A stretch of 43,203 nt of DNA from an uncultured Paraprevotella sp. (lineage in GTDB: Bacteria; Bacteroidota; Bacteroidia; Bacteroidales; Bacteroidaceae). Made by a program: the position numbers and the translations under genes. Positions 12,372-21,675 of the stretch are shown one piece after another; position 1 is the first letter of the stretch, and each line of letters starts with the position of its first letter. The stretch is from positions 1 through 43,203 of the forward strand of contig CAMWUI010000024.1 in assembly GCA_947177395.1 (NCBI GenBank). Reading direction: 5' to 3'. The notes under the pieces were generated by a model. It made no database searches. It was not told the DNA's origin and was given only the letters and a program-made list of their open reading frames with translations.

Positions 12372-13631
12372 TTAGTATTCCACTTTGTAGTCTTTATGGA
12401 GAGATTCGCCTTTCCAAGCTCTTTTGGTGGTCCAGTCGGCTGGAGCGTCGGTCCAGAATCTGTTGTCTGCGGGAAGACCCAAAGGCAGGAAACTAAGTGT
12501 GGCCATATAGAGACTGCCCGTGGAGGTGTATACGTCGGCAGCTTCGGGCTGGTGACCGTTGAATCCGAGAACGAGCCATCCGTTGGAATCAAAATTCTGG
12601 TTGCCTTCGAACATGTTGCGATGAACGGCAGTCAGGGCACAACGAACCTGAGCCGGGGTAACATGTTCCGGCAGTTTTTCGCGCAGAGCGACTTCGGCCA
12701 GCGACTGAAACGCAGCCGTACGGTAGGTGACAGAGCGGCCGAAAGCAGGGTATGTACCGTCAGGCCCGATGATTCTTTCTGAGAATTCGGAGTGGCGGAT
12801 CATTCTGCGCAGGGCTTCGTCGTATTCAGTTTGGTTGGCACGTTTTTTAGCCAGCAATGTTTCCAGCATCTCAACCATCATCGGATGCATTACATAAGCG
12901 TTGTAGTAATCCATGCTGAATTTGCTGCCGTCGCTGTACCAGCCGTCACCGACATACCACTCTTTTATCTTGTTCTTCGCCAGTGAGATGCGGAACGGAT
13001 CGGGTTGTTCGCCTTGCTGCAAGAGAAATGCTTCGGTGATACCGGCAAAAAGCAACCAGTTGTTGTAGGCTCCCGTACGGTTTCTCAGACTTTTGAAAGC
13101 GGCGATGTAACGTTGTTTGGTGGTAGCGTCCAATGGTTCCCACAGGGATTTGGGGGCGCGTAGAAAGGCGTGTGCCAGATAAGCAGCGTCTACAATCGGT
13201 TGGGCCTGGCTCTCGAAATTCAGTCTGTCCGGTGACGCCGGATCTACCGCATTCTTAAGTCCTTTCAATACTTCTTCGCGCAACTGTTTACGCATCTTTC
13301 CTTCTTCCGTGTCATCATCAGGAAGCTCCAGCCAGGGAGCTACGCCGGCTAAAGTACGGCCGACAGCTTCCAGATAGGTTACTTTCTCAAGGTTCAGGTT
13401 GTAGTGAGCCGATTTCTCCAGTGGCATATTTTGCCGTAAGGCGCCTTCTGCCAGATTGTGGATTACCGGATAGGATATTTTCCAGAGATACTTTACCCAC
13501 AGGGCACGGTCCTCGGATCCTGTTGTTTGGGTTATTTGTGCTTTAGGCGTTTTTTTGTTACGTGCCTGTACGTCAAAGACTGATGCGGTCAGTAGCAACA
13601 TGAATGCAACATATAAACTACGGTATTTCAT
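12372..13631 (-). CDS. Secreted DUF2264 family protein (probable glycosidase)
   Basis: A 419-residue protein with a signal peptide (hydrophobic 8-20, cleavage near VQA-RN). The body is a helical (alpha/alpha) toroid of the DUF2264 family: WVKYLWKISYPVIHNLAEG near the start, RTGAYNNWLLFAG in the middle, GDGWYSDGSKFSMDYYNAYV around 230-250 and DGTYPAFGRSVTYRTAAF near 300. DUF2264 proteins are linked with uronic-acid polysaccharide breakdown in Bacteroides. It starts 22 bp after the GH88 gene stop, so the two are one operon: GH88 would remove unsaturated uronic acids and this enzyme would process the remaining chain. No SusC/SusD pair is in the window. Confidence 0.85.
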   Translation of the reverse strand: MKYRSLYVAFMLLLTASVFDVQARNKKTPKAQITQTTGSEDRALWVKYLWKISYPVIHNLAEGALRQNMPLEKSAHYNLNLEKVTYLEAVGRTLAGVAPWLELPDDDTEEGKMRKQLREEVLKGLKNAVDPASPDRLNFESQAQPIVDAAYLAHAFLRAPKSLWEPLDATTKQRYIAAFKSLRNRTGAYNNWLLFAGITEAFLLQQGEQPDPFRISLAKNKIKEWYVGDGWYSDGSKFSMDYYNAYVMHPMMVEMLETLLAKKRANQTEYDEALRRMIRHSEFSERIIGPDGTYPAFGRSVTYRTAAFQSLAEVALREKLPEHVTPAQVRCALTAVHRNMFEGNQNFDSNGWLVLGFNGHQPEAADVYTSTGSLYMATLSFLPLGLPADNRFWTDAPADWTTKRAWKGESLHKDYKVEY

Positions 13632-13653
13632 AATGTGATGATAGTATTATTGG

Positions 13654-14919
13654 TTAGAATAAAGGTTGTCCGTTGAGCAGACGGTCGTAACGGTAAAGAG
13701 CTTCTGTAAAATAGTAATCGGCATAGGTCAGCGGGACGTCTATCTCCGAGTTATGGGGGATGGAACCGACGCTATGCATAAGGATGAAGTTGCCGTTGGC
13801 GCCCTCTTGGGCTCTGTATGCCGGACTGCCTAATGAATGCAGTATCTGCCGGGCTGTTTCCAGATATGCTTTTCCTTTTTTCCCTTTGGTATAAGTGCTC
13901 AGTTCCAGCAGGGCAGAGGCTATTGTCGCAGCGGCGGACGCATCACGGTAGTTGGTTACGACGTTGTTGGCATTCGAACGTATTCCCGGAGTGTAGCCGT
14001 TCTGGTTGGCATTGAAGTCCCAGTATGTAATCTTGTCGGCAGGCAAACCTGGATGGTTGACATAATAGTCTGCCATTCTTTGGGCTGTTTTCAGGAAACG
14101 GGGATCCTGAGTTTCCCGATAGACCATCGTAAAACCGTATATACCCCATGCCTGTCCTCTGGCCCAGGTTGAATTGTCGGCATATCCCTGTGCCGTTTCG
14201 CCTTTGATAGCCTTGCCGGTGTTCTTGTCATAATACACGACATGATAGCAACTATAGTCATTGCGCACCTGGTTTTTCATAGTTTTCTCGGCATGTGACA
14301 CGGCCATATCCTTAAACTTCCGGTCTCCGGTTTTGCGTGACGCGAAGAACAATAGTTCGAGGTTCATCATATTATCGATAATCACGGGAAAATCATACGT
14401 TTCGTCTCCGTGCCAGGAACGGAAACTGTTCCACGATTGTATGGTTCCGGTGGTTGCATTGAAACGGCTACAGAGTGAACGGGCCGATTCGATAAGAATG
14501 TCATCATAACGGCTGTCCGGAACGAAACGGTTGGCGTTCCCGTAACTGCAATACATCATGAAACCTATGTCGTGGTTGCCGGTAAAGGTCTTTACGGGCT
14601 CCATTTTCTCCGTGTATACCCGTGCGGAATCGCGTAAATCTTTGTTGTTTGTGTACTCTGACACGTACCACAATGTACCCGGGAAGAAACCGGCTGTCCA
14701 TAGATAAATACTGCCTTTGGCCTGCTGTCCGTTGCGGGTCAGACTGTGGGGCATGACAGCTTTGCCTTTGGAGGGGGTCTGCAACATGAGGCTGCATTGT
14801 TTAGCTGCAAATTCCATGTTCTCTTTAATGAATGCATGTTCATTATCAATCATCTGCGCATATACTTTCGCGCAGAAGCATAACGCGAGCGTGGCTGATA
14901 AAAAATGTTTGGTTCTCAT
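13654..14919 (-). CDS. Glycoside hydrolase family 88, unsaturated glucuronyl hydrolase
   Basis: A 421-residue secreted enzyme with a signal peptide ending at about AQ (residues 21-22). GH88 features: GSIYLWTAGFFPG (69-81), NHDIGFMM with Asp117, and VIIDNMMNLELLFFAS with Asp182, corresponding by position to the two catalytic Asp residues of Bacillus UGL, then DNSTWARGQAWGIYGF near 250. It hydrates the C4-C5 double bond of uronic acids left by polysaccharide lyases (heparin, chondroitin, gellan or similar), releasing the sugar. It is upstream partner of the DUF2264 gene. The exact glycan cannot be inferred. Confidence 0.92.
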   Translation of the reverse strand: MRTKHFLSATLALCFCAKVYAQMIDNEHAFIKENMEFAAKQCSLMLQTPSKGKAVMPHSLTRNGQQAKGSIYLWTAGFFPGTLWYVSEYTNNKDLRDSARVYTEKMEPVKTFTGNHDIGFMMYCSYGNANRFVPDSRYDDILIESARSLCSRFNATTGTIQSWNSFRSWHGDETYDFPVIIDNMMNLELLFFASRKTGDRKFKDMAVSHAEKTMKNQVRNDYSCYHVVYYDKNTGKAIKGETAQGYADNSTWARGQAWGIYGFTMVYRETQDPRFLKTAQRMADYYVNHPGLPADKITYWDFNANQNGYTPGIRSNANNVVTNYRDASAAATIASALLELSTYTKGKKGKAYLETARQILHSLGSPAYRAQEGANGNFILMHSVGSIPHNSEIDVPLTYADYYFTEALYRYDRLLNGQPLF

Positions 14920-15071: not shown

Positions 15072-15449
15072 TTAGCCTTTGTTCTCTGTCTCGAACTCTT
15101 TTCGGTGCTCTACAATTTTCTTTATGTTGGTTTGTGCCCATTCGGTTAGTTGGGTAATAAGAGGTACTAATGAATATCCCATTTCTGTCAGTTGATATTC
15201 TACTTTCGGAGGTACCACGGGATATATTTTGCGGGAGATGAGTCCATCGGCCTCCAACGTCCTCAATGTGCCGGACAGGACACGGGATGAAATATCGGGT
15301 ATCAATCGGCATAGTTCGTTGAAACGGACCTTCTTTTGTTCACTTAAAACCAGTACGACCAACAATGCCCATTTGTTTCCGAAACGGGCAATTACGTTCC
15401 GAACGGGACAAATTTCGATAATCGAGTTGCGCTCTTCTTTTTTCAGCAT
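15072..15449 (-). CDS. HxlR family transcriptional regulator
   Basis: A 125-residue winged-helix regulator of the HxlR family: CPVRNVIARFGNKWALLVV near the N-terminus, FNELCRLIPDISSRVLSGTLRTLEADGLI (recognition helix region) and the wing YPVVPPKVEYQLTEMG. Cysteines occur at positions 14 and 47. In Bacillus subtilis HypR, Cys14 and Cys49 form a disulfide switch and the target encodes a nitroreductase; here the gene is divergent from an operon that also ends in a nitroreductase. It probably controls that RiPP operon and itself in response to oxidants or electrophiles; this is inference from spacing and context. Confidence 0.88.
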   Translation of the reverse strand: MLKKEERNSIIEICPVRNVIARFGNKWALLVVLVLSEQKKVRFNELCRLIPDISSRVLSGTLRTLEADGLISRKIYPVVPPKVEYQLTEMGYSLVPLITQLTEWAQTNIKKIVEHRKEFETENKG

Positions 15450-15487: not shown

Positions 15488-15577
15488 GTAATAAAATTCA
15501 GATATTGTTTTCGGGATATGTTTTTATTTTTTTAACGCATTACAAATATGCTGATTTTCTGCAAAAACGAGAAAAAG

Positions 15578-15601
15578 GTTACTATTGAACCAGAATGTAA
15601 C
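15578..15601. promoter_or_regulatory. Possible HxlR operator between the divergent genes
   Basis: An interrupted palindrome GTTAC (15578-15582) / GTAAC (15597-15601) sits directly upstream of the -33 position of the peptide operon promoter. The position suits a regulator site; that HxlR binds it is inference. Confidence 0.3.
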
Positions 15602-15603
15602 TT

Positions 15604-15635
15604 CTTGCAAAATAGTGTTATGTGATATATTTTTG
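15604..15635 (+). promoter_or_regulatory. Promoter of the RiPP operon (-33 CTTG, -7 TATTTTTG)
   Basis: CTTG at 15604-15607, 20-base spacer, TATTTTTG at 15628-15635. The expected start of transcription near 15642 gives a leader of about 70 nt, in which CTTGTAA and TTACAAG can pair just ahead of the precursor start codon. Confidence 0.55.
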
Positions 15636-15712: not shown

Positions 15713-15895
15713 ATGAAAAGAGTATCTGTATGCGGAGTTTATTCCGCAAAGAGAAGCGCGCAAAGCTACCTTTGTGCAAAAGAGGAAACGGAAAATCCAA
15801 GCGGAGCCTGCGGTTCGGCTTGTGGTGCAGGTGATGACAACCCCGAGCCCAAACCGGCTGCTTGTGGTTCGGCTTGCGGAGCCGGCGACAAGTAA
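15713..15895 (+). CDS. Cys-rich ACGX-repeat RiPP precursor peptide
   Basis: A 60-residue peptide with no signal sequence. The N-terminal leader (residues 1-30) has Cys7 and Cys21 and a charged end. The C-terminal core contains two identical nine-residue units, ACGSACGAG at 32-40 and 50-58, separated by a Pro/Asp/Glu spacer; core Cys are 33, 37, 51 and 55. Repeated ACG motifs next to a radical SAM/SPASM enzyme are the hallmark of what I recall being named the ACGX system in protein family collections; the chemistry is not known to me. Modification at the Cys or neighbouring residues by the adjacent maturase is the natural reading. A strong hairpin separates it from the maturase gene, which would allow more peptide than enzyme to be made. 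Confidence 0.88.
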   Translation: MKRVSVCGVYSAKRSAQSYLCAKEETENPSGACGSACGAGDDNPEPKPAACGSACGAGDK

Positions 15896-15911
15896 TCTGC
15901 TGTTTCGCTGA

Positions 15912-15956
15912 AATCGGCTCTGTGCCGTAAAGTGATTTATGGCACAGAGTCCGATT
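15912..15956 (+). terminator. Attenuator-like hairpin between precursor and maturase
   Basis: Arms 15912-15926 and 15941-15956 pair over 15 bp with a single bulged base (CTCTGTGCC against GGCACAGAG at the top), 14-base loop. It starts 17 bp after the precursor stop. Only a short T-poor tail follows, so it may be a partial terminator or an RNA 3'-end stabiliser. The in-frame ATG at 15939 lies on its loop/right-arm border, which speaks against that start for the next gene. Confidence 0.65.
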
Positions 15957-15992
15957 CGGTTTCAATTAGGATTCACAGACAAATTGCAGATT

Positions 15993-17012
15993 ATGGAATA
16001 CTTTGCATTTCAGTGGCACATTACTGACAGTTGCGACCAACGTTGCAAACACTGTTATATATTCTCGGAAGGACATTCCAAACTGGTGGAGATGCCTTTT
16101 CCACGAGCACGGCAAGTGATAGTCGATTGTGTGGAGATGTGCCGCCGTATGAATCGTCAGCCCTATTTTTATATCACGGGTGGTGACCCGATTCTGCACA
16201 GTCGTTTCTGGGATATTCTTGCGTTACTCAGGGGGCAAGGCATTCCGTTCACGATATTGGGTAATCCGTTTCATTTGACCGAAGAGGTTTGTAACCGTCT
16301 GAGAGCATACGGCTGCGATAAATACCAGCTATCTATTGACGGGCTTCGGGAAACGCACGATGCCATCCGTAAACCCGGTTCATTCGACACGACGATTGAA
16401 AAAATAGCCGTGATCCGTCGTGCCGGCATTCGCTGCGCTGTCATGACGACCGTTTCGGGCACTAATATCTGTGAAATACCGGATATCATTGATCTGGTAG
16501 TGGCTCACAAAGTGGATATTTTCGCTTTCGGGCGTTATTGTCCCACTTCTTTCGAAAAAAGCACTCACATCGAACCGTTGGAGTACCGCGATTTTCTGGA
16601 GCGTATTTGGCAGAAGTTTGTGCAATACAAGGAATGTGGCACGACGTTTAACCTGAAAGACCATTTGTGGACGCTGTTCCTCTATGAAAAAGGACTGTTC
16701 CGAATACCTGATGCGGTGGATGCCGATACGGTTTACGACGGTTGCCATTGCGGTGATTGCCACATGACTATTTTGCCCACAGGCGGTGTCATGGCCTGCC
16801 GGCGGTTCGAAAGCCCGGTGGGCAATCTGTTCCATGAACATATATACCACATTTATAACGGCGAAAAGATGAACGTCTACCGGCAATACGACCGATTTGA
16901 GAAATGTTCCCGTTGTGAACTGTTGCGTTTCTGTCGGGGATGTCCCGCCGTGGCATACGGTTACACGCACGATTTCTATGCGTCAGACCCGCAATGTTGG
17001 AAAAATTTATAA
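15993..17012 (+). CDS. Radical SAM/SPASM peptide maturase, ACGX system type
   Basis: About 339 residues from the ATG at 15993; the in-frame ATG at 15939 lies in the hairpin and is less likely. The radical SAM cluster motif CDQRCKHC (CX3CX2C) is near residue 14, followed by YFYITGGDP, CDKYQLSIDG and FAFGRYCPT, all typical of the core barrel. The C-terminal part is Cys-rich and fits a SPASM domain binding auxiliary 4Fe-4S clusters: GCHCGDCHM, LPTGGVMACRRF, then KCSRCELLRFCRGCP and a final Cys near QCW. It should use S-adenosylmethionine radical chemistry on the ACGSACGAG peptide. I see no separate peptide-recognition (RRE) domain gene. One base separates its stop from the nitroreductase start, so the two are coupled. 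Confidence 0.9.
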   Translation: MEYFAFQWHITDSCDQRCKHCYIFSEGHSKLVEMPFPRARQVIVDCVEMCRRMNRQPYFYITGGDPILHSRFWDILALLRGQGIPFTILGNPFHLTEEVCNRLRAYGCDKYQLSIDGLRETHDAIRKPGSFDTTIEKIAVIRRAGIRCAVMTTVSGTNICEIPDIIDLVVAHKVDIFAFGRYCPTSFEKSTHIEPLEYRDFLERIWQKFVQYKECGTTFNLKDHLWTLFLYEKGLFRIPDAVDADTVYDGCHCGDCHMTILPTGGVMACRRFESPVGNLFHEHIYHIYNGEKMNVYRQYDRFEKCSRCELLRFCRGCPAVAYGYTHDFYASDPQCWKNL

Positions 17013-17013
17013 T

Positions 17014-17595
17014 ATGAAGGATATACTTGAACTGATAAAATATCGTCGGAGTATCCGGCGATATACCGACCGGCAGGTGCCGGAAGAAGATCTGCAGAAA
17101 ATACTCGAAGCCGGAGTCTATGCTCCCAACGCCGGAGGAGGGCAGCGCAGTCGTTTTGTCGCCTGCCGGAACAAACGGCTTAATGGCATCATCGGCAGGT
17201 TGAACGTCAGCGGCCTTGACCGTTCGCGTCTCATGGGTGGTTTCGTGTCGAAAGACCAGCCTTCGATTATCGACGATCCTTCCATACGTTCAGGATTTTA
17301 CGGCGCCCCGACCGTCATCACGATTTTTGGACTGAAAAATTTCCTCTATTCCGTGCCCGATGCTTTTTGTGCCGCCGAAAACATGGTGCTCGAAGCTACG
17401 GCACTCGGCATATCGTCGTGCATTTTGGCCCGTGGGGAGGAAACTTTCTCGAATTCCGAAGGTGAACATATTTTGCGGGACTGGAACATTCCCGATAACA
17501 TGGTAGCCCATTGCTTTGTGATTCTGGGCTATGTCGACGGCCCTTATCCGGTCTCGAAGCCACGTAAAGAGGGGCGTTATACAATCGTCGAATAG
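17014..17595 (+). CDS. Nitroreductase family flavoprotein in the RiPP operon
   Basis: A 193-residue protein with nitroreductase family signatures: YRRSIRRYTDRQVPEEDL at the N-terminus (FMN phosphate-binding Arg residues), ILEAGVYAPNAGGGQ, and the central AENMVLEATALGISSCILARG helix. It starts 1 bp after the maturase stop. Relatives reduce nitro groups or quinones, or act in peptide and cofactor maturation (for example dehydrogenation of azolines by McbC-like members). In this operon it may oxidise or reduce the modified peptide, or serve as an electrophile-detoxifying partner of an HxlR regulator. Both are inference. Confidence 0.88.
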   Translation: MKDILELIKYRRSIRRYTDRQVPEEDLQKILEAGVYAPNAGGGQRSRFVACRNKRLNGIIGRLNVSGLDRSRLMGGFVSKDQPSIIDDPSIRSGFYGAPTVITIFGLKNFLYSVPDAFCAAENMVLEATALGISSCILARGEETFSNSEGEHILRDWNIPDNMVAHCFVILGYVDGPYPVSKPRKEGRYTIVE

Positions 17596-17633: not shown

Positions 17634-17669
17634 GCACCCCAAAAGTTTTGTGTCTAACTTTTGGGGTGC
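17634..17669. terminator. Perfect 14-bp hairpin, bidirectional terminator
   Basis: Arms 17634-17647 and 17656-17669 (GCACCCCAAAAGTT and its complement) with an 8-base loop lie between the convergent nitroreductase and peptidase genes. A few T follow on the plus strand. The sequence also resembles ends of IS3-group elements, so a relic origin is possible. Confidence 0.65.
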
Positions 17670-17700: not shown

Positions 17701-19002
17701 TTATTCCATCCAGCGGAGCAGACGGGCAATGGCGGCGTCGCGCAGGGAAGGAGGCAACGTGTTGATACGCGAGATATGGGAGCCGACAGGGTCGACAAAC
17801 GCACACATCTCACGCTTATGACTGAAGTCCAGCCAAGTGATGACACCCGAAGCCGACCACGGGTCGTTCTCTCCATAGATGAACATGATTTTCGGGTCGT
17901 TCTTCTTCAAGAATTTACGTGTGTGCTTATATAACTTTTTGCTGAATTTATACCGAGGCATATCGGCGGGGAGCATCAGACGGCGCAGGTAATCCTTCGT
18001 GGTGCGGATGCTCATATAGTTGCGGAACGGACGCATGTCGTAGCCGTAGTAACCTAGTTCGCGGGCGGCTTGGACAAAGAATGACAGGTTGCCGGTTTTC
18101 GGCTGGAAATATTCCGGGCCGCACAACTGGATGAAGTTCTTGAACAATGTCTCGTCATCCGACTGGGAGGATGCAAGCTTGTGCACGGGCGTGCCCCATT
18201 GCCAGAGAGAGAACGCCAGTTCCAGTACGCAGAAATCATAGATTTCGTCCAGCGGTGCATTGAACTGGTAGCCTTTTTCGTTGCAGAACTGTTCGAAGAG
18301 CGGCATCAGACGGCCTTTCCGTTTCAGCAGTTCCAACTGGTAGGCCTCGATGCATTTGCGCTGTTCCGCCGTACCGGCCGTGTTGCTGATGAACGGCTCA
18401 TGGCGTCCGTCCTCCACGGCGGCGTTCAGCGGGGCCACGTAAGGGACGGTCACATCCACGTCGTTCGGGAAGTAAGCCCGGTAGAACAGACTTGTCATGC
18501 CGCCTTTGCTCACGCCCGTAGCCAGCCATTTCCGTTCGTATACGTTACTGAATGCCGTGCGCACCTCGTGCAGGTCGTTCAGGGAATTCCATACCGTAAG
18601 ATGCTCCCAGTTGCAGGGGGCGGGCGTGGATTCCAAGAAATAGCGGTATTCGACGAACACCAGGTTGGCGTTGAGGATTTCGCACAGTTCCTCGGTGAAA
18701 TCCTTGTTCAAGGCGTATGCTGCCCCGTAACCTTCCGTCACTAGGACAGTGGGGCGGTCGAACCCTTTGTGCCCGATGATGACCCGTTGTTCAAACGTGC
18801 CGGCAGAAGGATTGGCGTAATCCACAGGATGCTGGAAGCGGACGACGTATTTTTCGGCAAAACGGGTCGTTTCGAGAGTGTCCACCCGTTTGATGGCCGG
18901 GATGGACGTCAGCCGGCTTTCGAGTATGCCGGCCCACAGTATGGCCGGCAGCCATACCATCAGGCCCAGTAGGGCAAGGATTGATCTTGTTCTGTTCATC
19001 AT
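17701..19002 (-). CDS. Secreted serine peptidase (S28/S37-like tripeptidyl aminopeptidase)
   Basis: A 433-residue protein with an N-terminal signal sequence (hydrophobic 8-24). It has an alpha/beta-hydrolase fold: VLVTEGYGAAY near 87-97, the nucleophile elbow GVSKGGMTS with Ser165, the acid region YGENDPWSASG and the His in GSHISR near the C-terminus. This matches the S37/PS-10 and S28-type peptidases annotated in Bacteroides that cut Pro-containing or tripeptide N-termini in the periplasm. It is the last gene of the ettA operon, 25 bp after the SUI1 gene. It converges on the RiPP operon, but a strong terminator separates them, so a role in peptide maturation is not supported. Confidence 0.82.
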   Translation of the reverse strand: MMNRTRSILALLGLMVWLPAILWAGILESRLTSIPAIKRVDTLETTRFAEKYVVRFQHPVDYANPSAGTFEQRVIIGHKGFDRPTVLVTEGYGAAYALNKDFTEELCEILNANLVFVEYRYFLESTPAPCNWEHLTVWNSLNDLHEVRTAFSNVYERKWLATGVSKGGMTSLFYRAYFPNDVDVTVPYVAPLNAAVEDGRHEPFISNTAGTAEQRKCIEAYQLELLKRKGRLMPLFEQFCNEKGYQFNAPLDEIYDFCVLELAFSLWQWGTPVHKLASSQSDDETLFKNFIQLCGPEYFQPKTGNLSFFVQAARELGYYGYDMRPFRNYMSIRTTKDYLRRLMLPADMPRYKFSKKLYKHTRKFLKKNDPKIMFIYGENDPWSASGVITWLDFSHKREMCAFVDPVGSHISRINTLPPSLRDAAIARLLRWME

Positions 19003-19977: not shown

Positions 19978-21675
19978 TCAGTCCTCCATCAGTTTGCGGT
20001 AGCGGATGCGTTTCGGTTCCTCCAGTCCCAGCCGCTTCATCTTGTTGGACTCATAGTCGGAGTAGCTTCCTTCGAAGAAGAACACATTGCCTTCTCCTTC
20101 AAAAGCAAGTATGTGGGTGCAGATACGGTCGAGGAACCAGCGGTCGTGGCTGATGACCACGGCGCAGCCGGCGAATCCTTCCAGACCCTCTTCCAGGGCG
20201 CGCAGGGTATTTACGTCGATGTCGTTGGTGGGTTCGTCCAGCAACAGAACGTTGCCTTCCTCCTTCAGTGCCATGGCGAGATGCAGGCGGTTGCGTTCGC
20301 CGCCGGAGAGCACGCCGCATTTCTTTTCCTGATCACCTCCCGAGAAGTTGAAACGGCTCAGGTAAGCCCGTGCGTTGATGTCCCGGCTACCGATGCGGAT
20401 CAGGTCGTTGCCTCCGCTGATGACCTCGTAGACACTCTTGTCCGGAGCAATGTCCTTGTGGCTTTGGTCCACATAGGCCAATTTAACGGTCTCCCCCACG
20501 TCGAATGTTCCAGCGTCGGGCGTGTCCAGTCCCATAATCAGGCGGAACAAGGTCGTTTTTCCGGCTCCGTTCGGACCTATTACTCCTACGATGCCGTTGG
20601 GCGGAAGCATGAAGTTCAGATTGTTGAACAATACTTTTTCGCCGAAAGCCTTGCTTACGCCCGTCGCTTCGATGACCTTGTTGCCCAGGCGCGGGCCGTT
20701 GGGGATATAGATTTCCAGTTTTTCTTCTTTTTCCTTCTGGTCCTCGTTGAGCAGCTTGTCGTATGAGTTCAGACGTGCCTTGCCCTTGGCCTGGCGTGCT
20801 TTGGGAGCCATGCGCACCCATTCCAGCTCGCGTTCCAGTGTCTTGCGGCGCTTGCTGGCCGTCTTTTCCTCCTGTTCCATGCGTTTGGTCTTCTGTTCCA
20901 GCCAGGAAGAGTAATTGCCTTTCCAGGGTATGCCTTCCCCGCGGTCCAGTTCCAGAATCCATCCGGCTACGTCATCCAGGAAGTAGCGGTCGTGAGTCAC
21001 GGCAATGACCGTTCCTTCGTATTGGTTCAGATGCTGTTCCAGCCAGTCGATGCTCTCGGCATCCAAGTGGTTGGTCGGTTCGTCGAGGAGCAGGACGTCA
21101 GGCTTCTGCAGCAACAAGCGGCATAGGGCCACACGGCGGCGTTCGCCGCCCGACAGGTTCTCCACAGTCTGGTCGGCCGGCGGACAACGCAGTGCATCCA
21201 TGGCACGTTCCAGTTTGCTGTCCAGATTCCAGGCATCCGAAGCGTCCAATATATCCTGCAATTCTCCCTGGCGGGTGAAGAGCCCGTTCATCTTGTCTTC
21301 GTTTTCATAATATTCCGGCAGTCCGAACTTCTGGTTGATTTCCTCGTATTCTGCCAGTGCATCCACGATGGGTTGTACGCCTTCCATCACCACCTCTTTC
21401 ACCGTCTTCGTGTCGTCGAGTTGGGGCTCCTGTGGCAGGTATCCTACGCTGTATCCCGGAGAGAACACCACTTCCCCCTGGTAGTTCGTGTCCAGTCCGG
21501 CAATGATTTTCATCAAAGTGGACTTACCGGAGCCGTTGAGACCGATGATACCTATCTTGGCTCCGTAGAAAAAGCTCAGATAGATATTCTTTAATACTTG
21601 TTTGTTGGTTTGTTGAATGGTCTTGCTGACGCCGACCATTGAAAAGATGATTTTCTTGTCGTCTACTGTTGCCAT
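19978..21675 (-). CDS. ettA: Energy-dependent translational throttle protein EttA (ABC-F)
   Basis: A 565-residue soluble protein with two ABC ATPase domains and no membrane helices. First domain: GLNGSGKST, LSGGERRRVALC, LLLDEPTNHLD. Second domain: GPNGAGKTT, LSGGERNRLHLAMAL, LLLDEPTNDID. The linker between them (about 245-325) is the charged P-site tRNA interaction motif of ABC-F factors, and the arm insertion in domain 1 is of EttA type. It binds the ribosomal E site and gates the first elongation step according to ATP/ADP ratio. First gene of a minus-strand operon with the phosphorylase-like, SUI1 and peptidase genes. Confidence 0.95.
   Translation of the reverse strand: MATVDDKKIIFSMVGVSKTIQQTNKQVLKNIYLSFFYGAKIGIIGLNGSGKSTLMKIIAGLDTNYQGEVVFSPGYSVGYLPQEPQLDDTKTVKEVVMEGVQPIVDALAEYEEINQKFGLPEYYENEDKMNGLFTRQGELQDILDASDAWNLDSKLERAMDALRCPPADQTVENLSGGERRRVALCRLLLQKPDVLLLDEPTNHLDAESIDWLEQHLNQYEGTVIAVTHDRYFLDDVAGWILELDRGEGIPWKGNYSSWLEQKTKRMEQEEKTASKRRKTLERELEWVRMAPKARQAKGKARLNSYDKLLNEDQKEKEEKLEIYIPNGPRLGNKVIEATGVSKAFGEKVLFNNLNFMLPPNGIVGVIGPNGAGKTTLFRLIMGLDTPDAGTFDVGETVKLAYVDQSHKDIAPDKSVYEVISGGNDLIRIGSRDINARAYLSRFNFSGGDQEKKCGVLSGGERNRLHLAMALKEEGNVLLLDEPTNDIDVNTLRALEEGLEGFAGCAVVISHDRWFLDRICTHILAFEGEGNVFFFEGSYSDYESNKMKRLGLEEPKRIRYRKLMED

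Follow-up and report, generated by a model that had tools for sequence, protein, structure and literature searches.

Gene neighbourhoods point to a redox-stress context for the ACGX radical SAM peptide cassette

What is a cysteine-repeat peptide for when its gene is followed by those of a radical S-adenosylmethionine (radical SAM) enzyme and a nitroreductase, with a regulator gene diverging from all three? A locus of this kind lies in a 43,203-nt stretch of DNA from an uncultured Paraprevotella sp. (GenBank assembly GCA_947177395.1, contig CAMWUI010000024.1), which we refer to, at its full length, as the window. An earlier note on this DNA, made from the letters alone, described at 15713–17595 a 60-amino-acid peptide in which ACGSACGAG occurs twice, a radical SAM/SPASM enzyme and, after a 1-bp gap, a nitroreductase, and these open reading frames were confirmed. 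The note also gave the pairing the name ACGX, and the name is right: the peptide and the enzyme both score above the curated NCBIfam cut-offs of that system (TIGR04341, 34.6 bits against 28; TIGR04340, 571.5 bits against 400), and RefSeq names the Roseburia orthologues acgA and acgM. Judged by its sequence, the locus is an ordinary member of this NCBIfam-named family and differs from ACGX in nothing of kind. On the strength of the genes that accompany this family, we lean towards reading the ACGX (acgA/acgM) cassette as a redox- or electrophile-stress operon that is controlled by an HxlR-type regulator and supplies an intracellular peptide modified by AcgM.

Redox genes beside the peptide and maturase

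We analysed 81 loci from Bacteroidales and Clostridia (set 1), comprising the window and 80 retained from 98 maturase relatives found by a search of genome contigs, and counted as neighbours the matches over 55 bits, within 5 kb, to profiles made from neighbour clusters. A nitroreductase is present in 38 loci, a quinone reductase of the MDR family in 37 and a protein with a PNPOx-like domain fused to a ferredoxin in 20; at least one of the three occurs in 75/81. The best model for the MDR cluster is TIGR02824 (PIG3; 195.3 bits, below its cut-off of 296.8), and the PNPOx/ferredoxin cluster carries PF01243 and Fer4 domains. An HxlR-type regulator accompanies 62 loci, a SirTM-type sirtuin 19 and a macrodomain protein 17, the last two together in 15. 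The gene directly downstream encodes an MDR enzyme in 29 loci, a nitroreductase in 28, a PNPOx/ferredoxin protein in 11 and none of these in 13. When only the 63 loci with 1.5 kb on both sides are considered, 60 have the peptide, 60 a redox gene and 48 an HxlR gene, which is divergent and directly upstream in 41. Six loci have no redox gene, and three of these end at a contig edge (L065, L086 and L108).

The neighbours are sharply local. By midpoint, 48 HxlR genes fall in the first kilobase upstream, and 31 nitroreductase, 29 MDR and 20 PNPOx/ferredoxin genes in the first kilobase downstream; at 3–4 kb, where 64 and 56 loci still have sequence, each family contributes 0–2 genes per side. Most estimated gene junctions lie within ~40 bp, and L104, with the order maturase, nitroreductase, PNPOx/ferredoxin protein, macrodomain protein and SirTM, has an estimated overlap at every step; these estimates use guessed starts (the first start codon no more than 25 bases before the preceding stop), which makes negative values down to −25 in part artefactual. 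The cassette genes read as operons. As a background, the window's own genome has three HxlR matches, and nitroreductase matches in six frames, over 2.65 Mb. Among 29 radical SAM loci of relatives that score below the cut-off (with up to ~1.5 kb of flank), these neighbours are absent from 28, and the remaining one, L011, is itself a decayed ACGX locus.

The same picture recurs in a second set of 30 loci scored with the same profiles, in which the maturases are at most 86% identical to those of set 1. It comprises 25 matches from the order of L104 (one incomplete and under the cut-off), three from plasmids and two from Bacteroidales. A redox gene is present in 29/30 (the miss ends inside the maturase), an HxlR gene in 25/30, SirTM or a macrodomain protein in 16/30 and the peptide in 26/30.

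The reductase itself is variable. The window nitroreductase is 55% identical, over 190 amino acids, to the one that follows acgM in Roseburia. In L031, the closest relative of the window, the maturase is 92% and the nitroreductase 89% identical to those of the window, whereas in L032 a maturase 89% identical stands beside a nitroreductase only ~45% identical. When the loci on the maturase tree are labelled by quinone reductase or nitroreductase, each label changes at least 13 times on well-supported branches, a count that is indicative only, as contig ends truncate some loci and the tree program warns of long branches. From these comparisons, the nitroreductases are of unlike lineages and not a fixed part of the unit, and an MDR enzyme takes their place in many loci. 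The downstream slot seems to want some quinone or nitro reductase, not one dedicated tailoring enzyme, and such interchangeability argues against a thiazole-forming role. The earlier note had seen here something close to a minimal three-gene biosynthetic unit. Its gene order and divergent regulator stand, but the nitroreductase is not fixed, and the context of HxlR regulator, quinone or nitro reductase and SirTM/macrodomain genes speaks more for stress physiology than for a minimal natural-product cluster.

The lack of an export or leader-protease gene, remarked on in the same note, extends to the family. Between the window regulator and the hairpin that follows the nitroreductase there is neither an exporter nor a leader peptidase (unlinked ones were not searched for), and among the 21 neighbour clusters present in at least four loci we identified no peptidase and no exporter in a constant place. 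Dedicated export was considered and rejected: of these 21, only cluster 11 holds ABC proteins, in seven loci and in varying places, with a transporter membrane domain in two of three members tested. The window member of this cluster, an ABC-F-like frame at 19978–21675, is not counted as part of the cassette. In L080, an ABC transporter lies directly upstream of the maturase. Elsewhere in the clustering, clusters 5 and 12 are mostly antisense to tabulated genes (19/23 and 6/7 frames), cluster 18 lies antisense to the peptide region, and the one tested member of cluster 19 has no Pfam match.

The repeat unit of the peptide

A peptide with CG repeats stands upstream of the maturase in 76/81 loci; this is the conserved precursor-like frame beside orthologous maturases on which the earlier note had staked its reading. 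Among the other five, L068 and L089 begin at a contig edge, L076 carries a variant peptide, and in L080 and L103 none was found. The variant precursor of L076 (4701–4937) carries SGCGV units; this locus has no HxlR or redox neighbour and forms the longest end branch of the maturase tree. The peptides contain 2 to 10 CG units and fall mainly into two N-terminal types, S/TAQ in 49/76 (Bacteroidales loci) and LKNLF in 23/76 (Clostridia loci and two Prevotellaceae loci, L106 and L109). Inspection by eye reveals neither a signal peptide nor a GG leader. In its own genome, the window peptide alone reaches the threshold in a search for other precursors.

The two units of the window peptide, each reading C-G-S-A-C-G-A-G-D, share the same 10 amino acids, yet 7/10 codons differ. 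Such divergence is seen in 61/61 peptides with comparable units, where 615/1833 codon pairs for identical amino acids differ (pairs inside one peptide overlap and are hence not independent). Unit copies that hold their amino acids while their codons drift indicate selection on the peptide rather than recent duplication of the DNA.

To describe the unit, we used the unique CG contexts of 100 peptides, 74 from set 1 (L071 and L108, 2 of the 76, have undetermined residues and were excluded) and 26 from set 2. There are 69 contexts with Cys at +4 and five that end before +4. In the remaining 180, position +4 is Asp or Glu in 158 (88%), as against fractions of 0–0.32 elsewhere between +1 and +8. 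The acid is kept while many residues are seen at +3 (G, A, S, K, V, T, E and others). Gly at +1 is nearly fixed (139/142 unique Cys contexts), and many units carry a second Cys at −4; in some loci, for example L168, single CGxxD units occur mostly or exclusively. In the window peptide, both second-Cys sites read CGAGD, that is, Cys-X3-Asp/Glu sites are present.

The archaeal peptide of L116, on a Methanosphaera plasmid, was read from an annotated frame, left out of these statistics and not counted among the 26/30 of set 2. TIGR04341 fails to detect it, and its leader and linkers differ, but all seven of its CG sites are CGXE, with the acid at +3. Together, the prevalence of CGxx(D/E) and the archaeal CGXE suggest a recurring element that looks like Cys-Gly-X(1–2)-Asp/Glu and not merely ACGX.

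The maturase

We set the start of the maturase at MEYFAFQWHIT, which is invariant in 49 aligned relatives; an in-frame ATG also lies upstream, at 15939. The earlier note's CX3CX2C motif corresponds to C14, C18 and C21, and there are nine further invariant cysteines (108, 251, 253, 269, 305, 308, 314, 317 and 335). Only 13 residues precede the first cluster cysteine, and the only Pfam domains are Radical_SAM (PF04055) and SPASM (PF13186); the maturase thus has no recognisable RRE (RiPP recognition element, where RiPP denotes a ribosomally synthesized and post-translationally modified peptide). An AlphaFold2 model (mean pLDDT 89.7) has as its top Foldseek matches SuiB, SkfB, 5why (an entry on sactipeptide thioether formation) and anSME. 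Besides TIGR04340, the maturase matches the NCBIfam models of SbtM (188.6 bits), AhbD (129.8), the mycofactocin maturase (67.5) and PapB (51.3), all below their cut-offs.

Regulator and promoter

The cysteine of the N-terminal CP motif is kept in 61/61 aligned HxlR neighbours; matches of the window regulator to the NCBIfam models RrpA and RrpB are below cut-off. Between the regulator and peptide genes, we looked for recurrent motifs in 51 intergenic regions. Motif A, GTTACT-N-(G/A)TAAC, occurs in 14/51 against a mean of 0.24 in shuffled sequences, and in 13 of these 14 it lies exactly 3 nt before a TTG-N-TAnnTTTG promoter. Two other types, TAAC-N-GGT (13/51; shuffles 1.1; 11 exactly 11 nt before the promoter) and GTGCGTACTT (8/51; shuffles 1.68), bring the regions with any of these clade-specific motifs A–C to 35/51, with none of the three in 16/51; the shuffles are approximate, with limited swaps. 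The strict pattern GGTTAC-N-(G/A)TAAC is present in 10/51. In the window, motif A and its promoter span 15577–15635; the promoter is of the Bacteroidales −33/−7 type, and a sigma-70 scan did not report it.

Distribution

The cassette is thinly scattered. Its maturase exceeds the cut-off in one of 61 near genomes, namely the window's own, and in 24/394 genomes of the order of L104, the genome of L104 included; the peptide family does so in 3/393 genomes of the window's order, again counting its own. Plasmid records that carry the maturase come from Roseburia, Subdoligranulum and the archaeon Methanosphaera. L031 has the regulator, peptide, maturase and nitroreductase in common with the window, and no other clustered genes within ~4 kb. 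Patchy occurrence, differing flanks and plasmid copies together fit lateral spread of a self-contained cassette.

Two of these loci have features of their own. In the decayed copy L011 (genome G030, same family; ~1325–2529), there is a short peptide remnant with CGSACGAGD and a maturase start with internal stops; the rear part of the nitroreductase is in another frame, and the HxlR gene is on the other strand. On the Methanosphaera plasmid (L116, 4434–8018), the divergent CGXE peptide is accompanied by an HxlR-like regulator, a protein of the 4Fe-4S PNPOx/ferredoxin kind and a quinone reductase. The maturase there is annotated as two frames, and the BREX genes brxL and pglZ lie a few kilobases away.

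Layout of the window locus and other nearby genes

The peptide and maturase genes adjoin on the same strand, with the regulator gene divergent from them and from the nitroreductase gene (Table 1). The maturase stop codon is at 17010–17012 and the nitroreductase ATG begins at 17014. The hairpin that follows is probably the cassette terminator: the terminator scan gave three sites, against a mean of 2.7 in shuffles, and only this one has a 14-pair stem (the others have 5). Ordinary flank genes lie on either side, a DUF2264 protein and a GH88-type hydrolase at 12372–14919 and an S37-family peptidase at 17701–19002, none of which falls into a cluster with genes from the other ACGX loci.

Table 1 Features of the ACGX locus in the window.
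Feature	Position	Strand	Evidence
ACGX-repeat precursor peptide (acgA-like), 60 aa	15713–15895	+	TIGR04341 34.6 bits; synonymous divergence between units
Radical SAM/SPASM maturase (acgM-like), 339 aa	15993–17012	+	TIGR04340, PF04055, PF13186
Nitroreductase-family protein, 193 aa	17014–17595	+	PF00881 79.3 bits
HxlR/DUF24-type regulator, 125 aa, N-terminal CPV sensor-type Cys	15072–15449	−	PF01638 99.7 bits (cut-off 20.8)
Inverted repeat GGTTAC-N14-GTAAC, possible HxlR operator	15577–15601	+	Motif search
Inverted repeat with Bacteroidales-type −33/−7 promoter TTG-N20-TATTTTTG	15577–15635	+	3 nt between the two
Perfect 14-bp hairpin then TTTC, probable cassette terminator	17634–17669	+	Terminator scan

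Several further families recur near the cassette. A DUF5131 cluster (tested member in L052; ~290 amino acids, C-x5-C-x2-C near the start) lies upstream or downstream in 8/81 loci (L045, L047, L052, L053, L055, L086, L108 and L109). A ~364-amino-acid protein with a signal-like N-terminal stretch and a weak beta-helix match follows the quinone reductase in eight Bacteroidales loci (L060, where it is one gene later, L064, L066, L067, L069, L070, L071 and L077). A cupin-domain protein is encoded between peptide and maturase in L042 (4569–4994), L043 (4072–4449) and L044 (3579–3956), with relatives elsewhere in three more loci (Pfam tested on L038 and L042). An Rrf2-family regulator lies near the cassette in four Clostridia loci (L083, L085, L090 and L095; Pfam tested on L083), and a cluster with an antibiotic biosynthesis monooxygenase (ABM) domain near L051, L052, L059, L060 and L062, the L051 protein having two ABM domains and a lipoprotein-like start.

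Proposed mechanism and alternatives

In the mechanism that we propose, the HxlR-type regulator would use its N-terminal cysteine to sense a thiol-reactive compound (a quinone, aldehyde, oxidant or nitro compound) and thereby free the promoter at 15577–15635, so that peptide, maturase and a quinone- or nitro-reducing enzyme would be produced together. AcgM, with no RRE domain of its own, would recognise the N-terminal segment of the peptide, abstract a hydrogen from the Asp or Glu in every CGxx(D/E) unit and link the cysteine sulfur to the Asp beta (or Glu gamma) carbon, in the manner of PapB. Alongside the detoxifying reductase, the modified peptide would then serve inside the cell as a thiol or thioether scavenger, a redox carrier or a metal ligand. 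The least certain step is thioether formation: the CGxx(D/E) spacing is that of PapB thioether sites, which makes a Cys-to-acid thioether our leading guess, but one to which we give rather less than an even chance, and with a PapB model score of only 51.3 bits the chemistry is assigned to AcgM by analogy.

A number of observations weigh against this reading. The maturase falls outside the PapB family (NF047865, cut-off 340), and the SbtM and AhbD models outscore that of PapB on it. The acid at +4 is absent in 22/180 contexts (a few of them in leaders or upstream of the start), the peptides of three Bacteroidales loci (L079, L081 and L082) end in CGAK, and the 69 contexts with Cys at +4 leave the first cysteine of each pair unaccounted for by the thioether model. 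A search of three frames over ~700 bases upstream gave no peptide for L080 and L103, nor did the peptide search of set 2 for L118, L148 and L153. Despite good contig coverage, L076 and L109 lack a redox gene within 5 kb, L079 has none in 2.4 kb downstream, and 19/81 loci, including 15/63 of those with 1.5 kb on both sides, are without an HxlR gene within 5 kb. A sensor cysteine near the N terminus is typical of HxlR proteins in general, motifs A–C were read off the same 51 regions in which they were counted, and contexts and loci share descent.

The product might instead be a redox cofactor or electron carrier like mycofactocin or PQQ, with the neighbouring reductase as its partner enzyme. An MDR enzyme or nitroreductase directly downstream in 57/81 loci (29 + 28) would suit this, as would the maturase matches to the mycofactocin model (67.5 bits) and to heme-cofactor radical SAM models, all below cut-offs. 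MftA, however, has a single C-terminal core, unlike peptides with 2–10 CG units, and the pairing in L032 of a distant nitroreductase with a close maturase, with an unrelated MDR enzyme elsewhere, fits interchangeable detoxifying reductases better; we consider a cofactor unlikely. We give still less weight to a secreted RiPP, antimicrobial or signal, that unlinked enzymes export and trim. The closest folds do include the RiPP maturases SuiB, SkfB and 5why, and ABC transporters occur somewhere in the flanks of a few loci, in L080 directly upstream of the maturase, but the 21 recurrent clusters contain no peptidase, their ABC cluster (7 loci) has no constant place, the peptide shows by eye neither a signal peptide nor a GG leader, and the neighbours are redox genes.

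Slightly less probable again, and thus quite improbable in our estimate, is a cysteine-rich metal or cluster ligand that AcgM alters only slightly, for example by epimerising or hydroxylating Ala or Ser: CX3C-spaced pairs with a nearby acid could bind metal and the repeat number varies, but the recurrent neighbour clusters that were identified include no family recognised as serving metal transport or storage. The reading to which we give least credence has AcgM and the nitroreductase turn cysteine into a thiazol(in)e, the latter acting like the SagB-type dehydrogenases. It would account for an adjoining nitroreductase-family protein and for SbtM as the second-best maturase model, but SbtM stays below its cut-off, a nitroreductase is found in just 38/81 loci, and none of the seven NCBIfam matches of the window nitroreductase is SagB-type or over cut-off; we set it low because there is no SagB-type match and the nitroreductase is replaceable. 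An anti-phage role was also considered and rejected: PADLOC gives a remote viperin resemblance of the radical SAM domain (58.7 bits) and weak matches of two other proteins, and the archaeal cassette near BREX genes is one case.

Should the preferred reading of a stress operon hold, a radical SAM peptide would be serving an anaerobe's own chemistry rather than warfare, and two stress systems, HxlR regulons and SirTM ADP-ribosylation, would be linked to a modified peptide.

Comparison with known systems

No paper on the ACGX system, TIGR04340, TIGR04341 or acgA/acgM was found in the open literature searched, which excludes most subscription papers and bioRxiv preprints; a paper on RiPP mining in Bacteroidales mentions neither nitroreductase nor HxlR in its main text, by term counts (PMC10352776). 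The ACGX locus of Roseburia sp. 831b has the same gene order as the window, a divergent helix-turn-helix gene and a nitroreductase downstream. There and in many other Clostridia loci, PNPOx/ferredoxin, macrodomain and SirTM genes follow, which the window lacks.

The PapA/PapB ranthipeptides resemble ACGX in having repeated CX3D/E sites in a small peptide beside a radical SAM maturase, and PapB is described as joining Cys to Asp or Glu in such sites and tolerating other spacings (PMC9413430). ACGX departs from them in its low PapB score, its nearly fixed Gly at +1 and the second Cys at −4 of many units. SbtM, the thio(seleno)oxazole modification maturase (TIGR04082, cut-off 350) and second-best model at 188.6 bits, is a family that the window maturase does not enter, and its model has ~200 extra N-terminal positions.

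On the regulatory side, the HxlR/DUF24 regulons of Bacillus subtilis (YodB, CatR and HypR) share with ACGX a conserved N-terminal cysteine and genes for nitroreductases or flavin reductases. According to passages of PMC6943732, these HxlR kin sense HOCl, quinones and diamide through that cysteine, and their regulons include the nitroreductase YodC; a radical SAM-modified peptide, present in ACGX, is not mentioned for them in those passages.

The SirTM/macrodomain operons, composed of GcvH-L, LplA2, an LLM protein and OYE in addition to SirTM and the macrodomain protein, are tied to oxidative stress and likewise place these two beside flavin-type oxidoreductases, as many ACGX loci do (PMC4518038). 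The sirtuin encoded near the Roseburia cassette matches 5a3a, a structure entry from that study, at 6.8e-65, and this match and the adjacent macrodomain gene are the grounds for the SirTM assignment. A crude motif search found no GcvH-type lipoyl site in 18 SirTM-bearing ACGX loci, which have a cysteine peptide where the SirTM/macrodomain operons have GcvH-L; the window is without SirTM. A bolder version of our reading, which we think rather unlikely, would make ACGX a ribosomal answer to thiol stress: an enzyme-tailored poly-(Cys-Gly-X-X-Asp/Glu) peptide that replaces, in anaerobes, low-molecular-weight thiols or the lipoylated GcvH-L carrier, is induced by an HxlR electrophile sensor, is served by interchangeable quinone and nitro reductases and, in many Clostridia, is the target of the adjacent SirTM/macrodomain ADP-ribosylation pair. 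The comparison across loci yields direct tests, as it predicts one crosslink motif, one operator and one class of inducer.

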